Below, piece after piece: positions 5,775 through 33,824 of a stretch of 33,824 nucleotides of DNA. Position 1 is the first letter of the stretch; each line of letters opens with the position of its first letter. The stretch is from contig JAMPXO010000050.1 in NCBI GenBank assembly GCA_023701125.1, positions 1 through 33,824 on the forward strand. Direction: 5' to 3'. The notes beneath the pieces are model-generated. The model was not told the DNA's origin and ran no database searches. It saw only the letters and a list, made by a program, of their open reading frames with translations. Source of the stretch: Vicinamibacteria bacterium. GTDB lineage: Bacteria > Acidobacteriota > Vicinamibacteria > Fen-336. The translations under genes and the position numbers were made by a program.

Positions 5775-5860
5775 CTCGCCTCCCTGGATGCCCTCGAAAG
5801 GCGGATTCTATTCAGTTTCCCGAGCGGCGCGCGCCCCCTCCGCGCGAGGCGGCTGCGCAG

Positions 5861-6520
5861 CTACGCCATCGCCAGCAACTCGGCGACCGCCTTCTCGATG
5901 CCTTCCGCCGCTTCCGAGATCCGGCCCGCCAGCATGTAGGCCGGCGAGGTGATCAGCTTCCCCTCGCTGTCGATCGTCGTGGCGTCGACCGCGCAGTCGA
6001 CGTGACGGGCGCCCATGGCGGTCAGCGCCGCCGCGGTCGCCGCGTCGTTGCCGATCGTCAGCCTCGGCGACTCGGCGCCCAGGACCCCGGCGAGCACCGC
6101 GGGCGCGATGCAGACCGCCGCGACCGGCTTGCCCTGGGCGTGGACCTCGCGCACCAGCCGCGCCACGCCCGAGTCGACCTGGCAGTCCTTGCCCTTGACC
6201 GCGAAGTCGCACAGGTTCTTGGCCGCGCCGAAGCCGCCCGGCAGGATCAGGCCGTCGACCTGATCCGCCTCGACCTGCTTCACGTCCTGGATCTTCCCGC
6301 GCGCGATCCGGGCCGACTCGACGAGCACGTTGCGCTTCTCGCCCTCCGCGACCTGGCCGGTGAGGTGGTTGACGACGTGCATCTGGTCGACGTCGGGCGC
6401 GCAGATCACGGCCTCGGCCCCGCGCCGGTCGAGGGCCAGCAGCGTGATCACCGCCTCGTGGATCTCCGCGCCGTCGTAGACGCCGCAGCCCGAGAGAACG
6501 ACGGCGATCCTCTTTGCCAT
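5861..6520 (-). CDS. elbB: ElbB-like DJ-1/PfpI superfamily glyoxalase
   Basis: A 219-residue protein, close to the length of E. coli ElbB. It begins KRIAVVLSGCGVYDGAEIHE, the characteristic ElbB N-terminus, and has the DJ-1 nucleophile-elbow cysteine in AAVCIAPAVLAG, plus LILPGGFGAAKNL and TSPAYMLAGRISE near the end. The family is cytoplasmic and has reported glyoxalase-type activity; the physiological role is poorly settled. The ATG at 6520 is chosen over an in-frame ATG at 6541 because GAGGAG lies about ten bases before it and the MAKRIAVVLSG start fits the family. It is on the same strand as the upstream Ehr operon but 88 bases away, so co-transcription is possible but not clear. Confidence 0.92.
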   Translation of the reverse strand: MAKRIAVVLSGCGVYDGAEIHEAVITLLALDRRGAEAVICAPDVDQMHVVNHLTGQVAEGEKRNVLVESARIARGKIQDVKQVEADQVDGLILPGGFGAAKNLCDFAVKGKDCQVDSGVARLVREVHAQGKPVAAVCIAPAVLAGVLGAESPRLTIGNDAATAAALTAMGARHVDCAVDATTIDSEGKLITSPAYMLAGRISEAAEGIEKAVAELLAMA

Positions 6521-6608
6521 GGCTCTTGCGCTCCTCTCCATGATTCTGATCCCGGCCTTCGGCCCATCGCCATGGACCGTTTGATCCGGTGCGCGCGCAG
6601 AACCGAGG

Positions 6609-7457
6609 CTACCGGAGCGCCGCCGCCAGCCGAGCTTCGCGCCGGCCCATCGCCACCAGCAGGCCGTTCAGGATTGCCTGCGGGCGCGGCGGGCAGCCCG
6701 GGATGTAGACGTCTACCGGGACGACCTGGTCGACCGCGCCCACCGACGAGCAGGTGCCCTCGCCGAACAGGCCGCCGCTGCAGCCGCAGGCGCCGACTGC
6801 CACCACGATCCGCGGCTCCGGCGTCGCCTCGTACGTCCGGCGCAGCGCGATCTCCATGTTGCGGGTGACCGGGCCGGTGACCAGCAGCAGGTCGGCGTGA
6901 CGCGGGCTGGCGACGAAGTGGATGCCGAAGCGCTCGAGGTCGAACACGGGGTTGGCCGTGGCCGCGATCTCGAGTTCGCAGCCGTTGCAGCTCCCGGCGT
7001 CCACCTGGCGCACGTGCAGCGAGCGGCCGAGGCGGCCCTGGATGCGCTCGCGCAGCCGCGCGGCAGATTCGTCGAGGCTCGGCCCCGGCTGCGCCGCGAC
7101 GCCGCGGAACGTGGCCCGGCCGGCCTCGTCGACGTCGAACGAGGCCACGCGGGTGAGCTGGTCGCGGGTGTAGGCCGCGACCTCGTGGTCGTGTGCCTTC
7201 GAGATCGCCTGTTCAGGGCAGGCCGTCAGGCACTCGCGGCACTGGATGCAGGCGGCGTGCGACATCCGCAGCAGCTTCCGATCCGGTCCCGCCGGCGTGA
7301 GCTGGATCGCCCCCGTGGGGCACGCCGTCGCGCACTTGTCGCAGGCGATGCAGCGCGCGAAGTCGATCACTGGGAAGCCGAACGGCGGCGCCGCGGCGAA
7401 CGGGTCTTTCTCGGTCAGGATGCCCGTGCGCAGGCTCCGGGTCAGGATGCTCAACAT
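6609..7457 (-). CDS. Ehr/Hyf complex small subunit: HyfH-like ferredoxin fused to HyfI/NuoB-like subunit
   Basis: A 282-residue fusion. Residues 30-85 hold two classical [4Fe-4S] motifs, CIACDKCATACP (Cys36/39/42/46) and CIQCRECLTACP (Cys70/73/76/80), as in HyfH/NuoI. Residues 150-270 are a NuoB/HyfI-type small subunit with CNGC (157, 160), GACGC (224, 226) and IPGCPPRP (255), giving ligands for the terminal N2-like cluster. In hydrogenase-4 and complex I these are separate proteins. It would carry electrons along the cytoplasmic arm to the large-subunit active-site region. GGAGG five bases before the ATG supports the start; 25 bases separate it from the large-subunit gene. It is the last gene of the complex. 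Confidence 0.9.
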   Translation of the reverse strand: MLSILTRSLRTGILTEKDPFAAAPPFGFPVIDFARCIACDKCATACPTGAIQLTPAGPDRKLLRMSHAACIQCRECLTACPEQAISKAHDHEVAAYTRDQLTRVASFDVDEAGRATFRGVAAQPGPSLDESAARLRERIQGRLGRSLHVRQVDAGSCNGCELEIAATANPVFDLERFGIHFVASPRHADLLLVTGPVTRNMEIALRRTYEATPEPRIVVAVGACGCSGGLFGEGTCSSVGAVDQVVPVDVYIPGCPPRPQAILNGLLVAMGRREARLAAALR

Positions 7458-7482
7458 GCCGGCCTCCGGGAGAGCGGGCCCG

Positions 7483-9042
7483 TCATCGGTCGTTGCCCGC
7501 GTACGACAGATTGAAGCTCTTGTTGATGACCGGGAAGTCCGGGACGATGTTGCCGGGCACGGCGCGCACCAGCGCCGGCCAGTTCCGCGAGCTGGGATCG
7601 GTGACCTTCACGCGGTCGATGCCGCCGCGGGCGTCCGTGCGCACCCAGTGCAGGCACTCGCCGCGCCAGCCCTCCGCCCAGCCGAGCGCCGACGCTTCGG
7701 CCGGCAGGGCGTCGGGGAGCGGGCTCAGCAGCGCACCGTCGGGCAGGGCGTCCAGCACTTGCGCGAGCAGCGACAGCGACTGCTCCACCTCGCGCGCGCG
7801 GACCATCAACCGGGCGCGCACGTCGCCGACTTCTTCGACCGGCACCTCGAAACGCAGGCCGCGATAAGCGTCGTGCGGCTGGTCGCGGCGCAGGTCGAGG
7901 TCGAGCCCCGAGGCTCGCGCCGCCACCCCGACCACGCCCAGCTCGCGGGCCACCTGGGTCTCCAGCACGCCGGTGCCGTCGACGCGGTCGGTGAACGTGC
8001 CCGAGTCGATCAGCAGGCTCACCAGGTCCTTGAAGTCGCGGCCGAGCCGCGCCAACTGCGCCATCAGCTCCTTGCGGCTGCGCAACGTGAGGTCGCACTT
8101 CACGCCGCCCGCGGCGATCGTCCCGCGCAGCAGGCGCGAGCCGAACAACCGCTCGTGGGACCGCACCAGGTCCTCGCGGATCGCCTGGGCGCGGCTGGCG
8201 GGCACCGTGAAGGCGACGTCGGTGGCGATCGCGCCGACGTCCGCGACGTGGTTGTAGACGCGCTCGAGCTCGAGCAGCGCGACCCGCAGGTGGCGAGCGC
8301 GCGGCGGCGGCTCGACGCCCGCGAGGCGCTCGATCGCGTGGACCCAGGCCAGCGCGTGGCCCACGGCGGTATCACCCGAGATCGACTCGGCGAGGAACAG
8401 GCCGTGACGCCACGGCAGCCGCTCGAAGCGCTTCTCGATCCCCTTGTGCACGTAGAAGAGCCGCAGTTGCAGGTACAGCACGGGCTCGCCGGCGACGCCG
8501 AAGCGGAAGTGGCCGGGCTCGATGATGCCGGCGTGGACCGGGCCGACCGGGATGTGGAACACGCCCTCTCCGGTCACTGGCCGATAGGCGCGGTACTGCC
8601 CGCCCACCCGCGGCACGACACGCCGCTCGTCGAAGTCCTTGCGCAGCTCGAAGGCGCCCTCGGGCCAGTCGTCGTGCAGCGAGACGTGGTTGGGGTTCGG
8701 GTGCCCCGCGGGCACCGGGCCGAACGCGTCCATCACCTCGCGCTCGAACCAGTTGGCGGCCGGATGGCGGGCCGAGATCGACGGGAAGCCGGCGCCTGCC
8801 GGGACCACGGCCCACACTCGCACGAAGCCCGGCGGCTCGGCGCAGGCCCACAGGTGGTGGACCGCGGTGCGCCCCTCCCCTTCGTCCGTGCCGAACAGCG
8901 AGGCCAGGCGCAGCCCGGAGCCCGCCGCACGATCGGCGAGTGCGGGCAGCTCCGACAGCTCGGCCCGCACGACCCACTCGCCCGGCCGCTCCTCGACCAG
9001 GCCCTCGACGCCGAGGCGCTCGCGCCAGACCGCGGCGCTCAT
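7483..9042 (-). CDS. Ehr/Hyf complex large subunit (NuoC + NuoD/HyfG-like), lacking NiFe cysteines
   Basis: A 519-residue protein. Residues 1-145 are NuoC-like (NWFEREVMDAFG, then GHPNPNHVSLHDDWP and LRKDF); the rest is NuoD/HyfG/HycE-like (FHIPVGPVHAGIIEPGHF, YVHKGIEKRFE). Catalytic [NiFe] hydrogenases have a CxxC near the start and another at the end of this domain. Here the first site reads ESISGDTAVGH (220-229) and the last reads NKSFNLSYAGND: all four nickel-ligating cysteines are absent. It therefore cannot bind a [NiFe] centre and matches the Ehr class, where a quinone-like site is presumed. ATG 9042 overlaps the stop of the HyfF-like gene by four bases (ATGA). Confidence 0.9.
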   Translation of the reverse strand: MSAAVWRERLGVEGLVEERPGEWVVRAELSELPALADRAAGSGLRLASLFGTDEGEGRTAVHHLWACAEPPGFVRVWAVVPAGAGFPSISARHPAANWFEREVMDAFGPVPAGHPNPNHVSLHDDWPEGAFELRKDFDERRVVPRVGGQYRAYRPVTGEGVFHIPVGPVHAGIIEPGHFRFGVAGEPVLYLQLRLFYVHKGIEKRFERLPWRHGLFLAESISGDTAVGHALAWVHAIERLAGVEPPPRARHLRVALLELERVYNHVADVGAIATDVAFTVPASRAQAIREDLVRSHERLFGSRLLRGTIAAGGVKCDLTLRSRKELMAQLARLGRDFKDLVSLLIDSGTFTDRVDGTGVLETQVARELGVVGVAARASGLDLDLRRDQPHDAYRGLRFEVPVEEVGDVRARLMVRAREVEQSLSLLAQVLDALPDGALLSPLPDALPAEASALGWAEGWRGECLHWVRTDARGGIDRVKVTDPSSRNWPALVRAVPGNIVPDFPVINKSFNLSYAGNDR

Positions 9043-10523
9043 CGCCCGCCCTCGACCACCCGCGCCGCGGCGTGGATCAGCTCCAGCAGCCCCGGCGGAA
9101 GATAGAAGGCCGAGCCGACGGCCAGCACGGCCGCCAGCAGCATCGTCAGCGAGCCGAAGTCCATCTTCTCGACGTCGACCGGCCGTGCCGGCGCCGCGGG
9201 CTGCTCGCCCAGCACCAGACGGCCCGTCTGATACGCGAAGCCGCAGAACAGCAGCACCAGGCAACCGAGCAGGATCACGCTGGCCGCGAGATGCGGCCCG
9301 GCGAAGCCGGCCCTGAGGATGATCAGCTCGCTGAAGAACATGCCGAACGGCGGCGAGCCCGTCATGATCACCATCGCCAGCACGAACAGCGTGCTGGCCA
9401 CGGGCGTGCGGCCCAGCGTGCCCGGCCCGATCTGCTCGAAGTTCGACGACGAGTGGAGCTGAGCGAGGGTGCCGGCCGAGAAGAAGGCCAGCGGCTTGGC
9501 GATCGAGTGGTACGTGAGATGGAGCAGGGCCCCGAAGGTGGCCGCCTCGGCGCCGAGGCCGATGCCGATCGCCATGATCCCCACGTGCTCGACGCTCGAG
9601 TAGGCCAGCAGGCGCTTCAGGTTCCACTGGATCAGGATGAACGGCGTCGCGACCGCGACCGAGAGCAGGCCGAGCGCCAGCAGCAGGCGCGACGAGAAGC
9701 CCGGGCCCAGCGCGGCGTTGGCGATCGTGTGCACGCGCAGCAGGCAGTACAGCGCGCCGTTGAGCATGCCCACGGCCATCAGCACGCCGGCGGGCGACGG
9801 CGCCTCGCGATAGGCGTCGGGCTTCCACGTGTGCATCGGCGCCAGGCCGGCCTTGGTGCCGTAACCGACCAGCGCGAAGACCACGCCGAGCTTCAGCGTC
9901 AGCGGGTGCAACTGGCCCGCGACCTCGATCAGCCGCGTGACGTTGAGGCCGGCCATGCCCTCGCCCAGCACGCCGCGGCCCGCCGCGAACATCAGCACGG
10001 TGCCCAGCAGCGCGAAGGCGAGGCCGAGGCTGCCCAGCATCAGGAACTTCCAGGCGGCCTCCAGCGAGGTGTCGCGGTCGTGGAAGGCGACCAGGAAGAC
10101 GGAGGCGAGGGTCGTGACCTCGACCGCAATCCACAGGATGCCGAGGTTGTTGCAGACGGACACCAGCAGCATCGCGAACACGTAGAGCGGGACCAGCGCG
10201 TCGAACTCGCGGCGCTTCCAGGGTGTGAGCAGGCCGCGATCCTCGTTGCGGCGCAGGTAGGCGATGCCGTAGGCCCCCGACATCAGCCCCACCAGCGCCG
10301 ACAAGACGAGCACGAGCGCCGACAGCCCGTCGACGCGCAGCGCCTCGTCGAACGCGCCCGGCACCGCTCCCGCCAGGAACTGCGACGCCGTGCCCACGGC
10401 CAGCGCGAACGTCAGCGCCAGCCCGCCGACGAGGGCGATCTCCTTCCACCGGCGCGGCAGCGGCAACAGGCCCGCGAGCGCGGTCAGCAGCGGTACGGCC
10501 AGGGTCCACAACAGCAGGTTCAT
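9039..10523 (-). CDS. hyfF: HyfF-like antiporter-type proton-pumping membrane subunit
   Basis: A 494-residue multi-helix protein of the Mrp-antiporter/NuoN-NuoM superfamily, best matching HyfF of hydrogenase-4. Visible features are GYGTKAGLAPMHTWKPDAYREAPSP around residues 240-265 with the conserved discontinuous-helix lysine, NLKRLLAYSSVEHVG, and HSIAKPLAFFSAG with a second buried lysine. These charged residues form the ion channel in the family. The start ATG at 10523 gives a hydrophobic first helix right away. The stop overlaps the next gene by four bases and the preceding HyfE-like gene ends five bases upstream, so it is translated as part of the complex. Confidence 0.92.
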   Translation of the reverse strand: MNLLLWTLAVPLLTALAGLLPLPRRWKEIALVGGLALTFALAVGTASQFLAGAVPGAFDEALRVDGLSALVLVLSALVGLMSGAYGIAYLRRNEDRGLLTPWKRREFDALVPLYVFAMLLVSVCNNLGILWIAVEVTTLASVFLVAFHDRDTSLEAAWKFLMLGSLGLAFALLGTVLMFAAGRGVLGEGMAGLNVTRLIEVAGQLHPLTLKLGVVFALVGYGTKAGLAPMHTWKPDAYREAPSPAGVLMAVGMLNGALYCLLRVHTIANAALGPGFSSRLLLALGLLSVAVATPFILIQWNLKRLLAYSSVEHVGIMAIGIGLGAEAATFGALLHLTYHSIAKPLAFFSAGTLAQLHSSSNFEQIGPGTLGRTPVASTLFVLAMVIMTGSPPFGMFFSELIILRAGFAGPHLAASVILLGCLVLLFCGFAYQTGRLVLGEQPAAPARPVDVEKMDFGSLTMLLAAVLAVGSAFYLPPGLLELIHAAARVVEGGR

Positions 10524-22152: not shown

Positions 22153-23300
22153 GGGGCCCGTTCCGGCTGGCCTGGCGCCAGCTCACGCGCGAGAAGGTGC
22201 GCTTCGGCGTCGCGCTCTGCGGCGTCGCCTTCGCCGTGGTGCTGATGCTGATGCAGCTCGGCTTCCGCAGCGCGATGCTGCGCAGCTCATCCCGCTTCCA
22301 CGAGCGGCTTCAGGCCGACCTGGTGCTGATCTCGCCGCAGTCCCCGTACCTGATCCGGATGGCCAGCTTCCCGCGGCGCCGGCTGGACCAGGCCCTGGGC
22401 ACGCCAGGTGTCACTGCGGTCGCGCCCGTGTACGCGACGCTCGCGATCTGGAAGAACCCGCGCGACGGCGCCACCCGCACGGTGTTCCTGGCCGGCATCG
22501 ACCCCGACCGCAAGACGCTGGGCATGCCGGAGGTGGAGGCCCAGCTCGACATCCTGCGGCGACCCGAGCGCGCGCTGTTCGACCGCGCGGCGCGCAAGGA
22601 GTACGGCCCGGTGGCCGACTGGCTGCGCGAGGCGCCCGAGGCCGAGGTGGAGGTCAACGGCCGCCGGCTGTGGATCGGCGGCCAGTTCGTGATGGGCACT
22701 TCCTTCGGCATCGACGGCACGCTGATCACCAGCGACCGCAACTTCCTCGCGCTGACCGGCCACGAGCCGTCGCAGATCGAGATCGGGCTGATCCGGCTGG
22801 CGCCGGGAGCGGACGCCGCCGCCGTGCAGGCCGAGCTGCAGCGCGCGCTCGAGCACGACGTGCTGGTGCTGACCCGCGACGGTTATGCCGACCGCGAGCG
22901 CAACTACTGGAACTCGGTGACGCCGATCGGCTACATCCTCGGCCTCGGCGCGCTGATCGGTTTCGGCGTCGGCGCGGTGATCGTGTCGCAGATCCTGTTC
23001 GCCGACGTCTCCGACCACCTCGCGGAGTACGCCACGATGAAGGCGATGGGCTTCCGCAACCGCTACCTCGCGGGCGTGGTGCTGTCCGAGTCGCTGGTGC
23101 TGGCCGGGCTCGGCTACCTGCCCGGCCTCGCCATGGCCGCCTACCTGTACGGCGCGGCCGAGCGGGCGACGCGCCTGCCGATGGAGCTCACCGGCCCGAC
23201 GGCCGGGCTGGTCTTCGCCCTGACGCTCGGCATGTGCTGCCTGTCGGGGATGCTCGCGCTGCGCAAGCTCTCGGGCGCCGACCCCGCGGAGATTTTCTGA
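22149..23300 (+). CDS. devC: DevC-like ABC exporter permease
   Basis: A 383-residue permease of the MacB/FtsX-type fold and the usual DevC length. One N-terminal helix (about 20-42) is followed by a large periplasmic domain and three C-terminal helices. The stretch YWNSVTPIGYILGLGALIGF, then VSDHLAEYATMKAMGFRNRY, closely resembles cyanobacterial DevC, which exports glycolipids in heterocysts. Here the substrate is unknown; a lipid or glycolipid is a reasonable guess. The gene overlaps both neighbours in the exporter operon (ATGA with devB, TGATG with devA). Confidence 0.92.
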   Translation: MRGPFRLAWRQLTREKVRFGVALCGVAFAVVLMLMQLGFRSAMLRSSSRFHERLQADLVLISPQSPYLIRMASFPRRRLDQALGTPGVTAVAPVYATLAIWKNPRDGATRTVFLAGIDPDRKTLGMPEVEAQLDILRRPERALFDRAARKEYGPVADWLREAPEAEVEVNGRRLWIGGQFVMGTSFGIDGTLITSDRNFLALTGHEPSQIEIGLIRLAPGADAAAVQAELQRALEHDVLVLTRDGYADRERNYWNSVTPIGYILGLGALIGFGVGAVIVSQILFADVSDHLAEYATMKAMGFRNRYLAGVVLSESLVLAGLGYLPGLAMAAYLYGAAERATRLPMELTGPTAGLVFALTLGMCCLSGMLALRKLSGADPAEIF

Positions 23301-24667
23301 TGGCGGCGCCGCTGATCCCGGCCAAGGGCACGACCGCGGTGCCGCTGATCACCGCCCGCGCGGTCAGCCACTTCTACGGCCACGGCGCGCTGCGCAAGCA
23401 GATCCTCCACGACATCGACCTGGCGATCGAGCCGGGCGAGATCGTGATCATGACCGGGCCCTCCGGCTCCGGGAAGACCACGCTGCTGACGCTGATCGGC
23501 GCGCTGCGCTCGGCGCAGCAGGGCAGCCTGCAGGTGCTCGGCCACGAACTGCGCGACGCGGGCGAGGAGCAGTTGATCGCGGTGCGCCGCTCGATCGGCT
23601 ACATCTTCCAGTCCCACAACCTGATGCGCTCGCTGAACGCGCAGGAGAACGTCGAGCTGGGACTGGAGATCCAGCCGCTCTCGCCCGCGGAGCGCCGCGA
23701 GCGCGCCCGCGCGGCGCTGGAGTCGGTCGGCCTCGGCGACCGCCGCCATCACTTCCCCGACCAGATGTCCGGCGGGCAGAAGCAGCGGGTGGCGATCGCG
23801 CGCGCGCTGGCGCCGCGGCCGAAGCTGATCCTGGCCGACGAGCCGACCGCCTCGCTCGACAAGCAGTCGGGCCGCGACGTGGTCGACCTGATGAACGACC
23901 TCGCCCGTCGCCAGCGCTGCTCGGTGCTGCTGGTCACCCACGACAACCGCATCCTCGACATCGCCGACCGCATCGTCCACCTCGAGGACGGCCGGCTGCA
24001 GTCGTTCGCCGCGGCGGTCTCGACGGACGCCCAGCGCATGCTCGACGCGCTGGTCCACACGACCCGCGAGAACGACATCGCGGAGCGCGTCCAGGGCCTC
24101 GCGGACGAGGCCTTCGCCACCTTCCTGGCCCAGGTCACGCAGGAGTTCGAGCAGTTGCTGCGGGTGATGCAGCTCTCGGGCTCGGACGCGTTCGAGTCGA
24201 TGCTCGAGCAGGTGCTCGAGGCCTTCACGCTGCGCATCGGCCGGATGCTGAAGGCCGACCGGGCGACGCTGTTCGTCGTCGACCGCGAGCACGGCTTCCT
24301 GTGGTCCAAGGTCGCGGACCAGGCCGGGTTGATCAAGCTGGCCATCGGCCAGGGCATCGCCGGCCGGGTGGCCGCGACCGGCGAGGTGATGAACGTCGCC
24401 GATGCCTACCAGGAACCGCTGTTCAACCGCCGCATCGACGACGAGAGCGGGTATCGCACCCGGACGATGCTGTGCATGCCCGTCAAGGACGCGGCCGGCA
24501 CCACCTTCGCGGTGATGCAACTGCTCAACAAGGCCGACGGCGCGCTGTTCGACACGAACGACGAGAAACACTTCGCCCACGTCGCCGGCCGCATGGGCGT
24601 GATCCTGCAGGCGTGGGCGCAGATGGCGCGACGCGCCGTCGTCGAACCGCCGGAGGAGGCGGCCTGA
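23300..24667 (+). CDS. devA: DevA-like ABC exporter ATPase with C-terminal GAF domain
   Basis: A 455-residue fusion. Residues 15-240 are a DevA/MacB-type ATPase: Walker A GPSGSGKT (53-60), signature MSGGQKQR (156-163), Walker B ILADE (177-181), H-loop His214. Ordinary DevA ends near residue 235-240. Here a helical linker (240-300) leads into a GAF domain (about 300-445) with GIAGRVAATGEVMNVADAY and LLNKADGALFDTNDE, the latter resembling the NKFDE motif of cyclic-nucleotide-binding GAF domains in phosphodiesterases and cyanobacterial cyclases. Export may thus be gated by a small ligand (inference). It starts inside the devC stop (TGATG). Confidence 0.9.
   Translation: MAAPLIPAKGTTAVPLITARAVSHFYGHGALRKQILHDIDLAIEPGEIVIMTGPSGSGKTTLLTLIGALRSAQQGSLQVLGHELRDAGEEQLIAVRRSIGYIFQSHNLMRSLNAQENVELGLEIQPLSPAERRERARAALESVGLGDRRHHFPDQMSGGQKQRVAIARALAPRPKLILADEPTASLDKQSGRDVVDLMNDLARRQRCSVLLVTHDNRILDIADRIVHLEDGRLQSFAAAVSTDAQRMLDALVHTTRENDIAERVQGLADEAFATFLAQVTQEFEQLLRVMQLSGSDAFESMLEQVLEAFTLRIGRMLKADRATLFVVDREHGFLWSKVADQAGLIKLAIGQGIAGRVAATGEVMNVADAYQEPLFNRRIDDESGYRTRTMLCMPVKDAAGTTFAVMQLLNKADGALFDTNDEKHFAHVAGRMGVILQAWAQMARRAVVEPPEEAA
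24652..24659 (+). promoter_or_regulatory. Strong ribosome-binding site for prmC, pointing to a CTG start
   Basis: GGAGGAGG ends four bases before CTG at 24664. The CTG overlaps the devA stop as CTGA, the same 4-base coupling pattern seen as ATGA and GTGA elsewhere in the window. No in-frame ATG, GTG or TTG exists near the expected PrmC N-terminus other than a GTG at 24613 deep inside devA. Confidence 0.55.
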
Positions 24668-25536: not shown

Positions 25537-26631
25537 CTACTCGCGGACGAAGCGGACCGTCAGCACCACGTCGCCGAACTCGACGCGGTCGCCATCGCGC
25601 AGCGCGGTCTCGGCCCCGCCGACGACGGCGCGCCCGTTGAGCCGCGCCGGGTGGGTCGCACCGAGGTCGGCGAGTGTCGCCTGCCGGCGGTCGGCGGCCA
25701 GCGTCAGCCGCGCGTGGCGTCGTGACACCGTCGGGTGGTCGAGGTGCAGCGCGGCGGTGCGCCCGATCTCGTGGGCGCCGGCCGCGGTGACCGCGAGGTA
25801 ACGGCCGCCGCCCTCGAGGCGCACCACCAGGATCCGGCGCGCGTCGCCGTCCTGCGGGCGCTCCGGCTGCTGGGCCTCCTCGCTCGCGGCCTCGAGCTTC
25901 GCCCGCCACTCGGCGTCGAAGCGGCGCACGATGGTCTGCTCGCCGTCCTCCATCGCAGGCGCCGAAGGCGCCACCGACGCGGCCGTGGCGATCCGGCCCG
26001 TCTCGATCCGGACCCGGTAGGCCACGACGCCGGCCAGGCCGATCTCGTCGCCGTCCCGCAGCCGCGCGCGGGCCACGGGACGCTCGTTGAGCGTGGTGCC
26101 GTTGGCCGAGCCCAGGTCCTCGACGTACACCGCCGCGGGCTGTCGCTCGACGCGCGCGTGCACCTTGGAGACCCGTTCGTGCTCGACCACCACGTTGCAA
26201 CTGCCCGCCGAGCGGCCCAGCGTCAGCTCGCCGGCCGAGATCTCGACCCGCGCAGGATCGGCGGTCGCGAGCGGCTCGAGCCAGGCCTGGACCACGCCCT
26301 CGAGCTCGATCCGCTCGGCGCTGCGCCCGGTCAGGAACAACAGGTCGACGCCCTTCGCCAGCGAGACGACGTCGAGATCCCGCAGCCGATGGCGGCGCGC
26401 GAGGCGGCCGTTGACGCGGGTACCGTTGGTGCTGCCGAGGTCCTCGACGAAGTGGCGACGCCCGTCCCACTGGATCCGCGCGTGCAGCCGCGAGATCTCG
26501 TCGAACGGCAGGCTCAGGCCGGCGGCGCGATCGCGACCGAGCGTGGTCTCGTCGGCCTCCAGCACCTGGGTACGGGGCGGTTCGCCAGGCAGCCGATAGC
26601 GCAGGAACGCGCGCGGCGTGGTCTCGCTCAC
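25537..26631 (-). CDS. Triple FHA-domain protein
   Basis: A 364-residue soluble protein with three forkhead-associated domains. FHA1 (about 20-105) has TLGRD, SRLHARI and DLGSTNGTRVNG; FHA2 (about 130-215) has TLGRS, SKVHARV and DLGSANGTTLNE; FHA3 (about 275-360) has EIGRT, SRRHARL but DLGATHPARLNG, lacking the usual NGT asparagine. FHA domains bind phosphothreonine peptides, so it should dock onto a Ser/Thr-phosphorylated partner; no kinase is visible in the window. No signal peptide. The GTG start overlaps the decahaem cytochrome stop (GTGA), placing it as the last gene of the redox operon. Confidence 0.9.
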   Translation of the reverse strand: MSETTPRAFLRYRLPGEPPRTQVLEADETTLGRDRAAGLSLPFDEISRLHARIQWDGRRHFVEDLGSTNGTRVNGRLARRHRLRDLDVVSLAKGVDLLFLTGRSAERIELEGVVQAWLEPLATADPARVEISAGELTLGRSAGSCNVVVEHERVSKVHARVERQPAAVYVEDLGSANGTTLNERPVARARLRDGDEIGLAGVVAYRVRIETGRIATAASVAPSAPAMEDGEQTIVRRFDAEWRAKLEAASEEAQQPERPQDGDARRILVVRLEGGGRYLAVTAAGAHEIGRTAALHLDHPTVSRRHARLTLAADRRQATLADLGATHPARLNGRAVVGGAETALRDGDRVEFGDVVLTVRFVRE

Positions 26632-28565
26632 CGCGCGCTCCCCGGGTGGTACGAGTGGCACTCGAGACAGGTGGCGCCGACGCCCGAGCGGCCGTGGCAA
26701 CGGGCGCAGCTCGCGATCGCAGGCAGGTGCAGGTCGTCGGCCTTCGCGCTCTTCTCGACCCCCGCGTGGCAGGTCGCGCAGCGGCCCGCGGCTGCGGCCG
26801 GCTCGCCCACCCAGGCGGCGACGTCGAGGTGGGGAGCGTGGACGAAGCGGGCGTGATCGAGCACGCCTGCCGCCGAGCGCACCTCGGGCAACGGCGCGGC
26901 CTCGGCGCCGGCCGGATGGCACTTGAGGCAGGGCGCCCACAGCGCCTTCAGCGCGCGCTCCACCTCCTCGCGCGGCCGCTCGGGCAACGGCGGCAGGCCG
27001 GGGTCCGTGGCCGCCAGCGCAGCGTCGATACGGGCCAGGCTGGCAGCGGCAGCAGGCGTCGCCAGCGATGGCCCGAGGCGGCTGGCCTCGGCCGCGCGCA
27101 CTCCGCTGTCGATCAGCCGCAGTTCGTCGCGCACGGCCGCGAGCGCCGCCTCGACCCTGCGACGGGACCGCTCGAGGCTTAGGTCCGCGTCGGGGTCGAC
27201 GCGAGCCACGCGGAGGCGTGCGATCAGCGTCTGCAACTCGGGGCCGAGATCGGGCCGCTCGCGGGCCAGGTCGCGGGCCAGCACCAGCAGCCCCTCGCGG
27301 GCGCGGTCCCGCTCGCCGCGATCATCCGCGTTGCTCGCGGTCCGCGCCGCCGCTTCCAGCTCGCGCACGGCGACCGCGCGGGCGGGATCGGCGGTCAACG
27401 CACGCAACGGCGCCTCCATCGCCCCCAGCGGCGCCCCGGCCACGGACGACGCGCGGGCGACCAGGCGCTGCTCGAGCGCGGCCGCCTCGCCGACCAGTTC
27501 CACCTCGCGAGCCCGCAGCTCTTCGGCCGACAGCGTCGCCGTGCCGTGTCCCGCCGCCAGCCGCTCGACCAGCGCGTCGCGGCGGGCGACGAGTTGCTGG
27601 CGCGCCTGCGCAAACACGGCAGGCTCCAGCCCGCGCGCCAGCCGGTCCCGGTTGGCGACCAGCCAGGCGTCGCGGTGCACGGCCCGGCGCAGCCGCACCT
27701 CGCCGAACTCGGTCGCGTCGAAACGGGCCGCCTCCAGCGCCGCGGCCTCGGCCTCCACCGCGGGCAGCCCGGGGCCGAGCACGCCCAGCGCCTGCAGCTC
27801 GCGGGGGCCGAGCACGAGGTCGGCAGCGATCTCGCGACTGCCGGCCTGCAGCTCGCGCTCGTGGCAGCGTGCGCAGTGGCGATCGAAGCTCGGCGCGCCG
27901 AAATCACGCGACGCGGCGTCGGGCTCGTGGCAGAACGCGCACACCGCCTCGCCCTTGGCCCGCGCGCCCAGCCCCTCGGCCGCGAACGCCTGCAGGCCGT
28001 CCGGGCGCAGGTGACGCTCGTGGTTGAAGGCCAGACCGGTGACCTCGGCCTGCTTGTCGCGCAGCGCCTGCAGCTCGGGATGGGCCGCGAAGCCCGAGAA
28101 GTGGCAGCGCGCGCAGTTGGCGTCGGCGACTGCGGACAGCTCGGCCGCACGACCGCGGTGCTCGATGTGACAGGTCGCGCACTCGGGTGCTGCGTGCCGC
28201 GCCGTCGTGCCCGCGGGGTCGCCGGCTCCGGCCCGCACGTGGTCGGCGTGGGTGAAGTCGCCGTCGGCCGTCGACGCGTGGCAGCGCACGCAGCGGGCGT
28301 CCGCCGCGCCGCGCGAGGAGAACGACGGGCTCGCCGAGTGGCACTGCCCGCAGGCGTCCTCGAACACCGCGTGGGAGGCGGCGACGCCGCCCGGGCTCGC
28401 GTGCTTGCGGGCGCGCCAGCCTTCCGGGGTCAGCAGCAGGGCGCAGCCGACGACGGCGACCAGCGCGAGGGCGAGCAGCGCCCGCCGGTAGACCCGGTTG
28501 ACGGGCGGCGGCGGCACCCAGTGCGGGCTGCGCGACGGCGTGCCGAACGGGACCTCGGGCGCCAT
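26628..28565 (-). CDS. Membrane-anchored decahaem cytochrome c with long haem-free insert
   Basis: A 645-residue protein. One N-terminal helix (about 28-45) anchors it, facing the periplasm. Ten CxxCH haem motifs are present: starting at Cys72, 92, 129, 151, 209 and 231, then at 546, 596, 620 and 633. Many free histidines (HADHV, NHERHL, HAPHLD) could be the second axial ligands. Between haems 6 and 7 lies a stretch of about 310 residues without haem, rich in Ala/Arg/Glu/Leu and probably helical. It would pass electrons in the periplasm. ATG 28565 is one base after the cytochrome b gene. Domain family beyond cytochrome c3/c7-like repeats is not clear. Confidence 0.88.
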   Translation of the reverse strand: MAPEVPFGTPSRSPHWVPPPPVNRVYRRALLALALVAVVGCALLLTPEGWRARKHASPGGVAASHAVFEDACGQCHSASPSFSSRGAADARCVRCHASTADGDFTHADHVRAGAGDPAGTTARHAAPECATCHIEHRGRAAELSAVADANCARCHFSGFAAHPELQALRDKQAEVTGLAFNHERHLRPDGLQAFAAEGLGARAKGEAVCAFCHEPDAASRDFGAPSFDRHCARCHERELQAGSREIAADLVLGPRELQALGVLGPGLPAVEAEAAALEAARFDATEFGEVRLRRAVHRDAWLVANRDRLARGLEPAVFAQARQQLVARRDALVERLAAGHGTATLSAEELRAREVELVGEAAALEQRLVARASSVAGAPLGAMEAPLRALTADPARAVAVRELEAAARTASNADDRGERDRAREGLLVLARDLARERPDLGPELQTLIARLRVARVDPDADLSLERSRRRVEAALAAVRDELRLIDSGVRAAEASRLGPSLATPAAAASLARIDAALAATDPGLPPLPERPREEVERALKALWAPCLKCHPAGAEAAPLPEVRSAAGVLDHARFVHAPHLDVAAWVGEPAAAAGRCATCHAGVEKSAKADDLHLPAIASCARCHGRSGVGATCLECHSYHPGSAR

Positions 28566-28566
28566 C

Positions 28567-29391
28567 TCAGTACACCAGGAAGCCGAGCACGTGGAGGACC
28601 AGCAGGCCGAGCAGCGCCGCGCCCGGGTACACGTGCCAGGCCAGCCAGGCGCGCAGCACGCGCTGCAGGCGCAGCTGGGCGTCGAGCTCCAGCTTCGTGG
28701 TGAACAGCACGATCAGGCGGTCGATCCGCTCGCGGTCCTCGGCCTCGACGAACGGAGCGAGCCGCCGCAGCGGGCTCAGGTCGTCTTCGCGACCGGCGCG
28801 CACGTCGATCAGGTAGCTCCAGCGCGGCTCGGGCCCGGCGAAGCGCGGGGCCAGCCGCTCTTCCCACAAGCCCTGCAGCGCCTCCCCCGCGCCCTCGATC
28901 GCCTGCTCGGCCTGGGTCCGGGTGTCGGCGACCAGGCCCGGAATGCGGTCGTGCATCGCGTACACGCGCAAGCCCTCGGCCGCTGCGGCGGGCAACGCCT
29001 TCTGGAGGAACGCGCCACCCAGGCCCGCGAGGGTCGTGAAGCCCGAGGCCAGCAGCAGGGCCCAGCCCATCTCCCCCGCCGGCCACGCGAAGCCGGCGTG
29101 GACCAGGGTCAGCACCATGCCGAGCAGGCCCAGGTAGACGTGGGCCTGGAACCAGTCCTCGGCGTTGCGCAGCGGCCGCGCCCGCGGCCGGCGCGCCGGA
29201 TAGGCCATCGCCACGACGAAGCAGACGGCGGCCGCGATGCCGAACACGAGGCCGAGACCCCGCTTCGGGCTCCACGGCGCCCGCAGCGTCGCCGCGACGA
29301 ACGCTCCCGCGCACAGGGCGCCGAGCACGGCCGTGGCCGCCAGCAGGTCGAGCCGCTTGGGGAACAGCCGCTTGCGGGTGGAAGCGCGCAT
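28567..29391 (-). CDS. Cytochrome b-like integral membrane subunit
   Basis: A 274-residue membrane protein with about five hydrophobic helices. Histidines placed as haem b ligands occur in QAHVYLGLLGMVLTLVHAGF (two His 14 residues apart) and in the final helix LAWHVYPGAALLGLLVLH (His pair 14 apart), a four-helix dihaem pattern. A soluble loop of about 85 residues separates helices 4 and 5. By position, between a cytoplasmic iron-sulphur protein and periplasmic cytochromes c, it should carry electrons across the membrane or exchange them with quinone. Not a close match to a named family that I can recall. ATG 29391 is three bases after the upstream stop. Confidence 0.75.
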   Translation of the reverse strand: MRASTRKRLFPKRLDLLAATAVLGALCAGAFVAATLRAPWSPKRGLGLVFGIAAAVCFVVAMAYPARRPRARPLRNAEDWFQAHVYLGLLGMVLTLVHAGFAWPAGEMGWALLLASGFTTLAGLGGAFLQKALPAAAAEGLRVYAMHDRIPGLVADTRTQAEQAIEGAGEALQGLWEERLAPRFAGPEPRWSYLIDVRAGREDDLSPLRRLAPFVEAEDRERIDRLIVLFTTKLELDAQLRLQRVLRAWLAWHVYPGAALLGLLVLHVLGFLVY

Positions 29392-29394
29392 CGC

Positions 29395-30849
29395 CTAGCC
29401 GAGCAGGGCCGCGACCCGGCCGAGGTCCTTGAAGGAGACGCGGGTGGCGCAGCCGTGGGGGCACATCTGCACGCAGGCCGGCCCTTCGGCGCGGCCGACG
29501 CAGAGGTCGCACTTGGTTGCCACCTCGACCGGCTTGCCGTCGGGCCGCAGCGTGCCCGGCTCGTGCATCGTGATGTTGCCCCACGGGCAGCGCTTGGCGC
29601 AGTTGCCGCAGCCGATGCAGGGCCGGGTCGCGTGGTCGACGGCGTTGATCGTCACCTCGAGGGTTCCGAGCTGCCGCGAGATGGCGCCCGTCGGGCAGTC
29701 GATCATGCACACCGGGTCGGTGCACTGGTAGCAGGCGGTGGCGATCAGCCAGTGGCGGTAGGTCGTGCCCTCGCGCAGGAAGCGCGGCACGCCGCCGTGG
29801 GTCGAGGCGCAGCCGCGGACGCACTCGTCGCACGAGGTGCAGGCGGCGAGGTCGACGAGCAGCACGCTCTCGCCGTGGATCAGGCCGGTGTCCATCGCCA
29901 TCTGCACGTGCTCGGCGGCCAGCGGGTCGTCGAGCACTGCGCCGCGGGCCTTCAGCCGCTCGATCGCGCCCTGCCACAGCGCGTCCTCGAAGGCGGCCGC
30001 GCCGGGCGCCGCGGCGCGCACGTCCTTCAGCTTGAGCCGGACCGCCTCGACGTGCTCGAGCGCCTGCAGCCGGAACGGCCAGGCCGCATCCTCCAGCACC
30101 GCGCCTTCGCCCGCGCAGTCGCCGGTGCGCAGGTAGGTCACCGCCAGGTCTGACGTGCCCGCGCGCACGCTCACCTTCACGTAACCGCCGCGCACGACGT
30201 AGAGGTGGGTCGCGGGCGCGCCCTCCTCCTCGATCACCGCGCCAGGCGCGAAGCTGCACAGCTCGGCCTTGTCCTTCAGCGCCTCCAGCGCGGCGTCCGG
30301 CAGCCCGGCGAAGACCGGGGCCTTGCCGAACAGCGCCTTCAGGGCGCGCTTGCGATAACGCTCGTCGAGGAACTTCTTCAGCTCCTTCGACGCCGCCAGC
30401 AGCATGCGCAGGCCGGGCACCTTGATGTGGAGCAGCTTCACCGCGCCACGCGCCCGCACGTCCGCCGAGGCCGGGTAACGGGTCAGCGCCGAGAGCTCGC
30501 CAAACAGCTCCCCGGGCCCGAGCACGACGAGTTCGTTCGTCTCCTCCGCGGGCCCGCCCCCAAACCCCGTCGGGCGACGCTCGCCCTCGGACAGGACGAT
30601 CTCGACCTCGCCGCCAACCACGAAGTAGGCCGTGTCCGAGTAGGCGCCGGCGCGCAGCACGAGCTCGCCCGGCGCGTAGTCGACGAAGTGGAGGTTGCGG
30701 CGGGCCTTGTCGAGCACCTTGGGCCGCACCTTCTCGGGCAGGCCCTGGAACAGCGAGAGCGGCAGCAGTTCCTCGAGCGGCGCGGGCACCATCAGGCGCA
30801 GGCGCTGTTCGTGGCGCGCCTTCAGCTCGTCGCGGCTGTCGGGGCTCAC
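29395..30849 (-). CDS. Double cyclic-nucleotide-binding-fold protein fused to four-cluster ferredoxin
   Basis: A 484-residue cytoplasmic protein. Two CNB-type beta-rolls (about 33-165 and 178-295) carry GELFGELSALTRYPASAD and GEGAVLEDAAWPFR; neither has the canonical PRxA arginine of cAMP-binding cassettes. The C-terminal part (335-470) is a DmsB/HybA-like ferredoxin with 16 cysteines in four sets: 337/340/343/347, 373/376/381/385, 411/414/417/421 and 447/450/459/463, enough for four [4Fe-4S] clusters. There is no helix-turn-helix. It looks like a ligand-gated electron-transfer subunit feeding the membrane cytochrome. The GTG start overlaps the upstream cytochrome stop (GTGA). Confidence 0.9.
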   Translation of the reverse strand: MSPDSRDELKARHEQRLRLMVPAPLEELLPLSLFQGLPEKVRPKVLDKARRNLHFVDYAPGELVLRAGAYSDTAYFVVGGEVEIVLSEGERRPTGFGGGPAEETNELVVLGPGELFGELSALTRYPASADVRARGAVKLLHIKVPGLRMLLAASKELKKFLDERYRKRALKALFGKAPVFAGLPDAALEALKDKAELCSFAPGAVIEEEGAPATHLYVVRGGYVKVSVRAGTSDLAVTYLRTGDCAGEGAVLEDAAWPFRLQALEHVEAVRLKLKDVRAAAPGAAAFEDALWQGAIERLKARGAVLDDPLAAEHVQMAMDTGLIHGESVLLVDLAACTSCDECVRGCASTHGGVPRFLREGTTYRHWLIATACYQCTDPVCMIDCPTGAISRQLGTLEVTINAVDHATRPCIGCGNCAKRCPWGNITMHEPGTLRPDGKPVEVATKCDLCVGRAEGPACVQMCPHGCATRVSFKDLGRVAALLG

Positions 30850-31973
30850 CGCTGGTCCCCCGTGTTGGGCGATGCGGAGGGCGCAGGCGACGGACCCGGC
30901 GCGGGCGTCGCCGCGGGCACCGGGCGCAGCGCCAGCGCCAGCAACTCGTCCTGCAACCGCAGCAGCTCGCTGTCGGCACCGGCGTACTCGCCGGGCGTGA
31001 AGCTCCGCCCGGCACCGGAACCCGACGGAGCTCGGCCCGCGCGGATCGCGTCCAGCAACAGCTTCAACGCCTCCTGGCGCAGCGCCAGCCGCGAGCGACT
31101 TGCGGCCGACTTCGCCGCTCCGGCCGCGGGCGACTGCGCCGCGCGCGCCGCCACGAACGGCGACGCCCCCGCGGGCGCAGCGGCGGGGCCCGCGTCGAAC
31201 GCGGGCAGGTCCAGTCCCCCGGCATCGGGCGCGGGCTCGGTGTAGTCGTCGGGCAGCGGCTGCGCGGCCGCCGGGTCGAGGCCGCGGCCCGCGGCGGCCG
31301 GCGCAGCGGCCGCGTCGACGGCACCCACGGGCCGCGGCTTCGGCGGCGGGATCTTCGCCACCTGGCGCGCCACGGCGGCACGGCCGAGGCGATCGATCTC
31401 GTTCATGTCGATCACGGTGCGCCGCTTCTCCCACACCCAGTGCTCGATCCTGGCGAGCGACGCCGCGACGTCGAACCTCTCGCCCGCCGGGTGGCCCGCG
31501 TCGCGGAAGTCGCCATCGGTCGTGACGTGACAACGCACGCAGACCTCGACGATGTTGGCCGGCTTGACGCGCAGGTCGGCCATGCCCAAGGCGACCGAGG
31601 CCTCGTACTGGTTGGGTTTCTGGTGCGGCTCGTTGTACCCCGAGCCCGGGCCGTGACAGCTCTCGCAGGAGACCCCCGCGCGCGGGCGACCGCGGACGAC
31701 GGTGCCGTGACAAGCGACGCAGCGCGGGTCGTCGGGGCGCACGCCCGCGAGCCGCGCGATCCTGATCGCCTCCGGCAGCCGCAGTTGCGCCAGGGTGTTG
31801 AAGTGGGCCTTCTTGCCCAGTTGCTCCACTTCCTTCTTCTGCCAGCGCTCCGCCTGCAACGAGTGGTTGTGGCAGCGGATGCACTCGGCCGGGCCCAGCA
31901 CGTCGGCCGCAAGCGACGGCACCGCCGGCAGCAGGAACGCGAGGGCCGCAGCCCGGCGCAGGAGAGGTCGCAT
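30846..31973 (-). CDS. Secreted tetrahaem cytochrome c (c554-like) with low-complexity tail
   Basis: A 375-residue periplasmic protein. Signal peptide MRPLLRRAAALAFLLPAVPSLAA is followed by four CxxCH motifs at Cys31, 85, 103 and 145; the pattern GPAECIRCH, HGTVV, CESCHGPG and VCVRCH resembles cytochrome c554-type tetrahaem proteins. The C-terminal half (about 205-375) has no haem, is rich in Ala, Pro, Gly and Asp, and includes an amphipathic stretch near 290-320. It would move electrons in the periplasm, receiving or donating to the membrane-bound decahaem protein. ATG 31973 is five bases downstream of the GlcG-domain gene stop. Confidence 0.88.
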   Translation of the reverse strand: MRPLLRRAAALAFLLPAVPSLAADVLGPAECIRCHNHSLQAERWQKKEVEQLGKKAHFNTLAQLRLPEAIRIARLAGVRPDDPRCVACHGTVVRGRPRAGVSCESCHGPGSGYNEPHQKPNQYEASVALGMADLRVKPANIVEVCVRCHVTTDGDFRDAGHPAGERFDVAASLARIEHWVWEKRRTVIDMNEIDRLGRAAVARQVAKIPPPKPRPVGAVDAAAAPAAAGRGLDPAAAQPLPDDYTEPAPDAGGLDLPAFDAGPAAAPAGASPFVAARAAQSPAAGAAKSAASRSRLALRQEALKLLLDAIRAGRAPSGSGAGRSFTPGEYAGADSELLRLQDELLALALRPVPAATPAPGPSPAPSASPNTGDQR

Positions 31974-31978
31974 CGCGC

Positions 31979-33721
31979 TCAAGGCTGCTCCGGGTTGCGC
32001 GGGAACTTCAGGTACGGCAGCCGTACGCGACGACCGTCGAGCGAGCGGATCTCGCTGTTGTCGACCCGCAGCGCGTCGGGCGGCTCGAAGCCCTGCGCCC
32101 CGCCGGCGGTGACCAGGTCGTTCTGCTCGACACCGTCGCCGGACACACCCAGGCCGCCGACCAGCCGGCCGGCCTTGAACAGCGGCGCCGAGCCCGGGAA
32201 CCAGGTGATGCCGTTCTGGTTGACGAACGTGCGATCGCCGCCGCGGCTCGGCCCCGGGCCCTCGGTGCAGGGGTTGAGCGTGTCGTAGACGAACAGCTCG
32301 AACCACGGCCCCGGCGTCTTCGGCGCATTGCGGTCGATGCCGGGCGGGAACAGCGGCTGGCCCCCGAAGGAAATCGTGCGCGAGGTCAGCGCCCAGCCCT
32401 GCCCGGCCGGCGGCTCGTCCCAGCCATAGCCGGCGCGCAGGGCGTAGCCACGCAACACCTCGTAGCCCTCGCGGGTCGAGAAGTAGTACGCGTTGCGGGC
32501 CTTGCTCGGCACCACGTCGACGGCGTCGAACAGCGCGTCGCCCATCCGGTACTCGGCCAGCACCTCGCCGCGCTGGTCGCTGACCGCGATGATGAAGCGC
32601 GGCGCCGCACCGCCATACGGCAGCCGCACCTGGGCGCGCGAGCGCTCGGCCTGGGCCACCGCCTGGTCGACGATGCGGCGCACGTCGACCACGTCGAGTC
32701 CGCCGGCCTCGGCGCTGCCGCGGGGCCCGATCAGGTAGCCCTCGGGTGCCTGCCGCCCGTCGCGCGGGGCGACGAGGTAGCTGCCGTCAGTGAAGCGGCC
32801 GGCCGCCGAGCCCGCGGGCCGCCGGTCGGGCGCCGCCTGCGTGAACGGCAGCCGGATGCCCTCGATGTAGATGGCGCCCGGCGGCGGAAGCGGGTTCGGC
32901 AGGTCGATGCCCGTGGTCAGGCCGCGGCCGGCGGAGAGCGCGGCGACCAGCGCCGCGAACTCCGCCCGCTCGCGGCTCACGCCCGCGACGCCGACGCCGC
33001 CGACGAGTTGCGCGCCGCGGTACAGCGGGATGCCGCCCGGGTTGATCGTCGCCTCGGCCCCGTTGTCGGTGTCGAACAGGTCGCGCTTGCCCGTCGTGAT
33101 GCCCAGCGACCAGATCGGCTGGCCGTCGAGGCCCACGATCGGTCCGCCGACCGCGCAGCCGCGGGTGTCGTCGGGCCGGCACGGCAACGGGCTCTCGCCG
33201 AACGTCCCGGCCAGCGAGCGCGGGCGCACGATCGGCGTGTTGAAGATCGCGTCGCCCGTGTCGTCGAGGGTGCAGCCGCGGTTGATGTTCTCGACGCCGT
33301 AGAGCGCGGCGTTGGGCGCATCGAAGATGCCCGGCGGGAAGTGGATGCCGCTGATGAAGCGCACCGTGCGCGACGCGAGCGGGGCCTGGTCGTTCGAGAA
33401 GTAGGCCGTGGTTCGCGCGAGCGAGACCGCGACGTCCGGCGAGCGCGGGTCCGCCTGCGGGCGAGCGTAGACGCCGAGGATGGTGCCCGCGCGGTCGACC
33501 ACCGCGACCGCCAGCGTCGGGTCGTCGAGGGCCTCGGCGGCGGCCCGCAGCACGGCCGCCACGTCGTCCGCGACCAGGATCGGCGCCGGCCCGCCCGGTC
33601 CCGCGGCGCGCGCGACGGCGGGCGCGCCGAGAGAGAACGATGGGCGGGGCGCTCCCCAGAGAACCCCGAGGGCGACCGTGACGGTGAGCAGGAGCGCGGC
33701 CGCGGAGATCGTCCTTCGCAT
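31979..33721 (-). CDS. Secreted protein with two GlcG/HbpS-type haem-binding domains
   Basis: A 580-residue exported protein with a signal peptide (MRRTISAAALLLTVTVALGV). Two GlcG/HbpS-fold (DUF336) domains are seen, about 55-300 and 345-570. Each has the typical pattern: AVAVVDRAGTILGVY / IIAVSDQRGEVLAEYRMGDA, a RTAYFSN / RNAYYFS segment, SRTVRFISG / SRTISFGGQ, and a closing GGVGVAGVSRE / GGLGVSGDGVEQND. HbpS-like proteins bind haem or act as redox sensors outside the cell. Insertions near the middle of each domain (NRGCTLDD, NPCTEGPG) have paired cysteines. The start at 33721 gives the signal peptide directly. It leads the redox operon. Confidence 0.85.
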   Translation of the reverse strand: MRRTISAAALLLTVTVALGVLWGAPRPSFSLGAPAVARAAGPGGPAPILVADDVAAVLRAAAEALDDPTLAVAVVDRAGTILGVYARPQADPRSPDVAVSLARTTAYFSNDQAPLASRTVRFISGIHFPPGIFDAPNAALYGVENINRGCTLDDTGDAIFNTPIVRPRSLAGTFGESPLPCRPDDTRGCAVGGPIVGLDGQPIWSLGITTGKRDLFDTDNGAEATINPGGIPLYRGAQLVGGVGVAGVSRERAEFAALVAALSAGRGLTTGIDLPNPLPPPGAIYIEGIRLPFTQAAPDRRPAGSAAGRFTDGSYLVAPRDGRQAPEGYLIGPRGSAEAGGLDVVDVRRIVDQAVAQAERSRAQVRLPYGGAAPRFIIAVSDQRGEVLAEYRMGDALFDAVDVVPSKARNAYYFSTREGYEVLRGYALRAGYGWDEPPAGQGWALTSRTISFGGQPLFPPGIDRNAPKTPGPWFELFVYDTLNPCTEGPGPSRGGDRTFVNQNGITWFPGSAPLFKAGRLVGGLGVSGDGVEQNDLVTAGGAQGFEPPDALRVDNSEIRSLDGRRVRLPYLKFPRNPEQP

Positions 33722-33753
33722 GGGCGCGGGATGATACTCTGCGCGCCTTCGCG
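33722..33753. promoter_or_regulatory. Short divergent gap at the head of the redox operon
   Basis: Only 32 bases separate the GlcG-domain gene from the divergent secreted-protein gene. The single AT-leaning patch, atgatact at 33731-33738, could supply a -10 element on either strand, but the space is too short for two full promoters, so promoters must reach into the flanking coding sequence. No clear Shine-Dalgarno is seen for either gene. Confidence 0.3.
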
Positions 33754-33824
33754 ATGCGGCTCCTCCCTGCACTTTCCCTGGTGCTCGCTGCCGCGGCAGC
33801 GGCCCCCGCCGCGCTCGGCTTCGA
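33754..33824 (+). CDS. N-terminus of an exported protein (3' end outside window)
   Basis: An open frame from ATG 33754 to the window edge encodes MRLLPALSLVLAAAAAAPAA, a plausible Sec signal peptide, then LGF. Only 23 residues are visible, so no function can be given. It is divergent from the redox operon. Rated cautiously because short Ala-rich frames are common in DNA of this composition. Confidence 0.5.
   Translation, partial: MRLLPALSLVLAAAAAAPAALGF

Follow-up and report, generated by a model that had tools for sequence, protein, structure and literature searches.

We describe here six closely packed genes from an Acidobacteriota bacterium that probably code for one half of a trans-envelope electron conduit, the half in the inner membrane and periplasm; the conduit as a whole would lead from the cytoplasm to the outer membrane or beyond. 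The genes lie on the minus strand at positions 25537–33721 of the window, by which we mean the whole stretch of 33,824 nucleotides that was analysed and which is the entire contig C199 of a draft genome (95% complete). In order, they encode a protein with two GlcG domains, a tetrahaem cytochrome c (c4), a CNB-CNB subunit with four [4Fe-4S] clusters, a dihaem-type b subunit, an anchored decahaem cytochrome c (c10) and a protein with three FHA domains. Electron transfer itself, the carrier order, the outward direction and a surface acceptor are what we infer from these parts. The initial annotation had described six genes joined by overlaps or gaps of at most five bases, and coordinates, strand and junctions all match this description: of the five junctions read 5' to 3', the first, third and fourth are gaps of 5, 3 and 1 bp, and the second and fifth are 4-bp overlaps. 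Because the neighbourhood is conserved across phyla, a chance array is excluded. Conserved ORFs that are opposite-strand shadows of high-GC genes were left out of the analysis. Elsewhere in the window, at 22670–24667, an ABC-transporter ATPase is encoded, the C-terminal part of which appears GAF-like by eye.

The six gene products

For five of the six genes the domain assignments are backed by Pfam, the exception being the b subunit. The first gene (31979–33721, minus strand, with its ATG at 33721) encodes a secreted double GlcG/HbpS-like protein of 580 aa with a hydrophobic, Sec-type N-terminal signal (Pfam HbpS-like, 1.4e-22); its Sphingobium homologue carries the RefSeq name 'heme-binding protein'. 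It is followed by c4 (30846–31973, minus strand, ATG at 31973), a predicted periplasmic, c554-like tetrahaem cytochrome c of 375 aa with a signal sequence and four CXXCH motifs, which matches Pfam Cytochrome_C554 at 5.8e-7 (C554/C7 range 6e-7 to 2e-6) and the cytochrome c-554 structure 1bvb at 1.6e-5 in phmmer. The third gene (29395–30849, minus strand, GTG start) encodes the FeS subunit of 484 aa, which has neither a signal nor a transmembrane (TM) segment and is predicted to be cytoplasmic; Pfam detects cNMP_binding over two stretches (3.6e-27) together with Fer4, and the FeS part is DmsB/HydN-like. What had initially been called a ferredoxin is indeed an FeS carrier, but one better described as a DmsB/HycB-type four-cluster subunit, with 16 Cys residues in four groups of four that are all invariant in the FeS alignment (A1). 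The c10 gene (26628–28565, minus strand) encodes a 645 aa cytochrome with a single N-terminal TM segment at residues 29–47, a long central insert and ten CXXCH motifs that are kept in 8/8 aligned homologues (Pfam c3/C7, 4e-8); it is predicted to be anchored in the membrane and to face the periplasm. The last gene (25537–26631, minus strand, GTG start) encodes the triple-FHA protein of 364 aa, predicted to be cytoplasmic, with no signal and no membrane helix (Pfam FHA, 6.4e-48, three stretches).

The b subunit (28567–29391, minus strand; 274 aa) has five predicted TM helices. No Pfam or NCBIfam family was found above cut-off, the best sub-threshold match being DUF4405 with 20.7 versus 26.7 bits, and the score against Pfam Ferric_reduct was 13.4 bits with a cut-off of 28. 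Four histidines, His84, His98, His253 and His267, are invariant or nearly so in TM helices down to about 20% identity. They form two pairs, each spaced by 14 residues, on two TM helices, which would suit two stacked b haems, and it is on these residues that our reading of the protein as a dihaem carrier rests. From the charged loops and a positive-inside topology, His84 and His253 would be located on the cytoplasmic side. An AF2 model was obtained with a pLDDT of 90.8; a Foldseek search with this model against the PDB returned nothing significant. With VIA-align, the top rows were unrelated helical bundles and the first dihaem match was cytochrome b561 (4o6y; Z 9.0, rmsd 3.5 over 136 aa), a weak match since helical bundles reach such a Z by chance. 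Assignment of the b subunit to a fold family was dropped, given the Foldseek result and a b561 Z value within the chance level of helical bundles.

It had been proposed that signalling domains are built into the conduit. This holds well for FHA1 and FHA2, which keep the canonical GR, S-R/K-x-HA and NGT motifs; FHA3 is partial and lacks NGT. It holds less well for the CNB domains, in both of which the phosphate-binding Arg is replaced in the window (GELSALTRYPASAD; GEGAVLEDAAWPFR), unlike in the Proteobacterial homologues; the residue is present in both domains of locus L052 and of Sphingobium. Cyclic-nucleotide control is therefore plausible as the ancestral state and doubtful here. Directly downstream of c10 on the Sphingobium plasmid pMSHV (L165, 16281–17129) lies a gene for a CpdA-like metallophosphoesterase/phosphodiesterase, for which the remaining loci yielded no relative at E 1e-8. 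Ser/Thr kinase genes are present in 11 of 69 loci, and in three of these they stand inside the gene set or immediately behind it (L040, 14004–15953; L058, 15331–16626; L067, 3760–5382), and such kinases are possible sources of the FHA ligands, although their position is only suggestive.

Extension beyond the contig end and distribution of the module

The six genes had been described as a six-gene redox conduit. They do appear to form one redox module, but the locus runs past the contig end. The last 71 bases of the window (33754–33824, plus strand; MRLLPALSLVLAAAAAAPAALGF) hold the first 23 codons of a divergent gene and match the start of a 710 aa outer-membrane barrel protein of sister genomes, where the gene is likewise divergent from GlcG. 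The start codons of the GlcG and barrel genes are separated by 32 bp (33722–33753), as they are in one sister genome; this spacing is unusually short for two promoters. On the sister contig, the barrel gene is followed by one for a 1262 aa protein with ten CXXCH motifs and an LVIVD repeat, and contig C149 of the own genome opens with the last 684 residues of this decahaem LVIVD protein. As C199 ends in the barrel and C149 starts in the decahaem protein, the assembly break must fall inside the neighbourhood. A search of the own genome with the sister barrel gave zero matches, as is expected if only the first 23 codons were assembled. A homologous barrel was modelled with moderate confidence (pLDDT 67) as an 18-stranded barrel with AlgE as the top match (E 1e-16), and the sister barrel matches no Pfam family. 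An outer-membrane beta-barrel is encoded together with multihaem c-type cytochromes in the neighbourhood, though judging from the model it is probably too narrow to enclose a decahaem protein in the manner of MtrB.

A scan of species genomes revealed full-length relatives across several phyla. Within the Acidobacteriota, the CNB-FeS protein was found in 41 of 396 genomes and 35 of 210 genera. Near the CNB-FeS gene in 69 non-redundant loci, many of them on truncated contigs, we found b in 61, c10 in 58, c4 in 37, the barrel in 29, GlcG in 25 and the decahaem protein in 24. FeS, b and c10 diverge in a correlated manner (r 0.855, 0.776 and 0.724; values reached in 0 of 500 permutations), part of which may come from shared species history. 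Named carriers include Acidobacteria, Nitrospirae, Calditrichia, Limnobacter, Rudaea, Dokdonella, Arenicella, SAR116 and Rhodospirillaceae, and on plasmid pMSHV of Sphingobium herbicidovorans the entire set is present in two gene blocks under generic gene names. The prediction of a conserved neighbourhood is thereby borne out across phyla; its expected home, chiefly the Myxococcota and Desulfobacterota, is not, the carriers belonging to the Acidobacteriota, Nitrospirota, Calditrichota and alpha-, beta- and gamma-Proteobacteria. A second Acidobacteriota layout (L148–L150, L156 and L157) comprises a pentahaem protein, a c4-like protein with eight CXXCH motifs, FeS, b, c10, FHA and TrxR-FHA, and lacks the barrel and the decahaem protein within the stretch. 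The own genome also holds a second, diverged FeS-b-c10-FHA copy (L018, C88:38000-56000, at 5446–9476), which is without c4, GlcG, barrel and decahaem protein and adjoins LytB-family and ACP-synthase III-like genes.

The same set of domains has been reshuffled in many fusions, which is the strongest evidence for a joint function. In 29 loci a TrxR-like FAD/NAD(P) domain is fused to the N terminus of CNB-CNB-FeS (detected by Pfam in one and by HMM in the rest). FHA is found N-terminal on c10 (FHA-TM-c10) in L052 and L033 and C-terminal on FeS in L058, and in L145 two polypeptides, CNB-CNB-FeS-b and FHA-TM-c8-TM-FeS-TrxR, hold nearly all parts. A tetrahaem domain precedes the barrel in L152 and L153 (first 2.5 kb), which recalls fused porin-cytochromes such as Cyc2. 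In L026, L030 and L040 a separate TrxR-FHA gene stands beside the operon, with a C-terminal [2Fe-2S] domain on its product in L030 (by Pfam) and in L040 (by sequence).

Proposed electron path and alternative readings

According to the model we favour, a cytoplasmic reductant would pass electrons to the four-cluster FeS subunit, from where they would cross the membrane through the two stacked haems of the b subunit, His84/His253 on the cytoplasmic and His98/His267 on the periplasmic side. The b haems would reduce the anchored decahaem c10, which in turn would reduce the tetrahaem c4, and c4 would deliver electrons to the outer membrane or past it, where the divergently encoded barrel and the large decahaem LVIVD protein would take over. 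The FHA domains may act through phosphothreonine, either in assembly or in gating of the complex, and the CNB domains may be ancestral cyclic-nucleotide gates that are apparently disabled in the own lineage. Since the cytoplasmic end of most relatives is a TrxR-like FAD/NAD(P) domain, the donor there is probably NAD(P)H. When a TrxR-FHA-[2Fe-2S] partner was sought in the own genome (draft, 95% complete), only weak local matches were obtained, and these were rejected as most likely being FHA domains; the own genome would then have to use another donor. The unbroken path from cytoplasm to periplasm that had been suggested is accordingly plausible in outline and incomplete at its cytoplasmic end, where the TrxR-like domain of the relatives was not found in this genome. 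A more far-reaching version of this model, which we put forward tentatively and regard as about as apt to fail as to hold, is that the module represents an undescribed family of trans-envelope oxidoreductases that are regulated and spread over several phyla, aerobes among them, carrying electrons from NAD(P)H through FeS and the dihaem b to the surface decahaem LVIVD protein, gated by phosphothreonine via FHA and, where CNB is intact, by cyclic nucleotides.

The missing TrxR partner in the own genome would also fit a complex coupled to quinones, along the lines of the Geobacter Cbc or CymA systems, in which menaquinol would be the redox partner of the b subunit and the FeS subunit would form a side branch or have a regulatory role. 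A dihaem b next to a multihaem c is indeed the layout of quinol : cytochrome c oxidoreductases such as CbcL (PMC6295460). However, CbcL has six helices of the HydC/FdnI type, whereas five are predicted for the b subunit, which also has a long insert on the cytoplasmic side; the best compact structural match of the b subunit, although weak, is cytochrome b561. Furthermore, in most relatives flavin/NAD(P) and FeS domains are fused to the subunits, and a purely quinol-driven enzyme needs neither. We therefore consider a quinone-linked complex a serious but rather unlikely alternative.

Much the same standing is given to a surface reductase that serves assimilation or detoxification instead of respiration: aerobic cells would spend NAD(P)H on reducing or releasing Fe(III), haem or extracellular organics, with GlcG binding haem or the substrate. 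The GlcG/HbpS-type protein with its RefSeq label of haem binding, the AlgE/OprD-like barrel and a gene named heme:hemopexin-binding protein adjoining a Sphingobium cluster are in agreement with this idea, as are the presence of the module in aerobes, for instance Sphingobium and Limnobacter, and that of haem-copper oxidases in the own genome. On the other hand, GlcG is found near the module in just 25 of the 69 loci, and large decahaem proteins typically go with electron export, so that we doubt this explanation to a similar degree. In favour of the outward conduit, MtrB/PioB-type porin genes are present in the own genome at two or three places (C218, C36 and C132; L167–L169), one of which may be divided between the ends of C36 and C132, and genes with ten CXXCH motifs lie near the porins on C218 and C132, which makes extracellular electron exchange plausible for this organism. 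It also has three haem-copper oxidase matches, and as relatives of the module occur in aerobic genera, respiration on minerals is not implied.

All carriers are in principle reversible, and inward transport has been proposed for Mto-type systems with similar parts (PMC6295460), so that extracellular donors might feed the FeS/FAD end in the cytoplasm. Passing electrons from haems of higher potential to NAD(P) costs energy, however, and no coupling subunit is visible, which makes the inward direction improbable. That the genes are co-transcribed without being related in function or forming a complex would be compatible with a module known from sequence alone, but is hardly credible in view of the recurrent fusions in varied combinations and the synteny across phyla.

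If the outward conduit that we propose is correct, a whole class of envelope electron conduits has gone unnamed, its parts being annotated piecemeal in many genomes, including those of culturable Sphingobium and Limnobacter, as 'hypothetical protein', 'cytochrome c3 family' or 'heme-binding protein'. Signalling domains would be physically joined to a transmembrane electron path, and electron transfer to the surface or the outside of the cell would extend to aerobic bacteria that are common in soil and sea. The existence of culturable carriers makes the module testable.

Comparison with known electron conduits

No complex of this composition was found in the open-access full-text literature, which is in line with the initial statement that none had been described. 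As far as can be tested from sequence, the module appears to be a widespread, undescribed variant of trans-envelope multihaem conduits. In freshwater Verrucomicrobia, clusters of unusual porins and multihaem cytochromes have been proposed to function in humic reduction; by their description, as far as it was available to us, they are set apart by porins with at least 20 transmembrane segments and octahaem partners, and that part of the description does not report CNB-FeS or FHA proteins (PMC5615132). With DmsB, NrfC and HycB the FeS subunit shares the 16-Cys four-cluster domain, but it has two CNB domains at its N terminus and its operon is without a molybdopterin catalytic partner. NADPH oxidases/ferric reductases and cytochrome b561 resemble the module in the flavin/NAD(P) input, which most relatives have, and in the two His pairs 14 residues apart; they differ in that the module places FeS between flavin and haem and has a multihaem cytochrome c as acceptor.

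At the outer membrane, the overall logic equals that of MtrCAB, Pcc and MtoAB, in which a barrel is encoded together with multihaem cytochromes. No MtrB/PioB-family barrel (PF11854) was found in the neighbourhood, however, and the PF11854 matches of the own genome lie on other contigs; the barrel of the module is modelled as 18-stranded and AlgE-like and has no Pfam family, and the decahaem protein is a 1262 aa LVIVD protein rather than MtrA or MtrC. At the inner membrane, the compositions of CbcL, CymA and ImcH differ from that of the module (PMC6295460). The likeness to the Geobacter Cbc quinone oxidoreductases that had been pointed out is one of logic; in the module, b and c10 are separate genes and b has five predicted helices. 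CbcL, MtoC and MtrH also join a dihaem b functionally to a multihaem c that feeds periplasmic carriers (PMC6295460), although each of them is a single polypeptide with an N-terminal multihaem c and a C-terminal six-TM HydC/FdnI-like b, which is not the case here. To this CbcL-type plan the module adds the CNB-CNB-FeS subunit, the FHA domains and, in its relatives, a flavin/NAD(P) domain.
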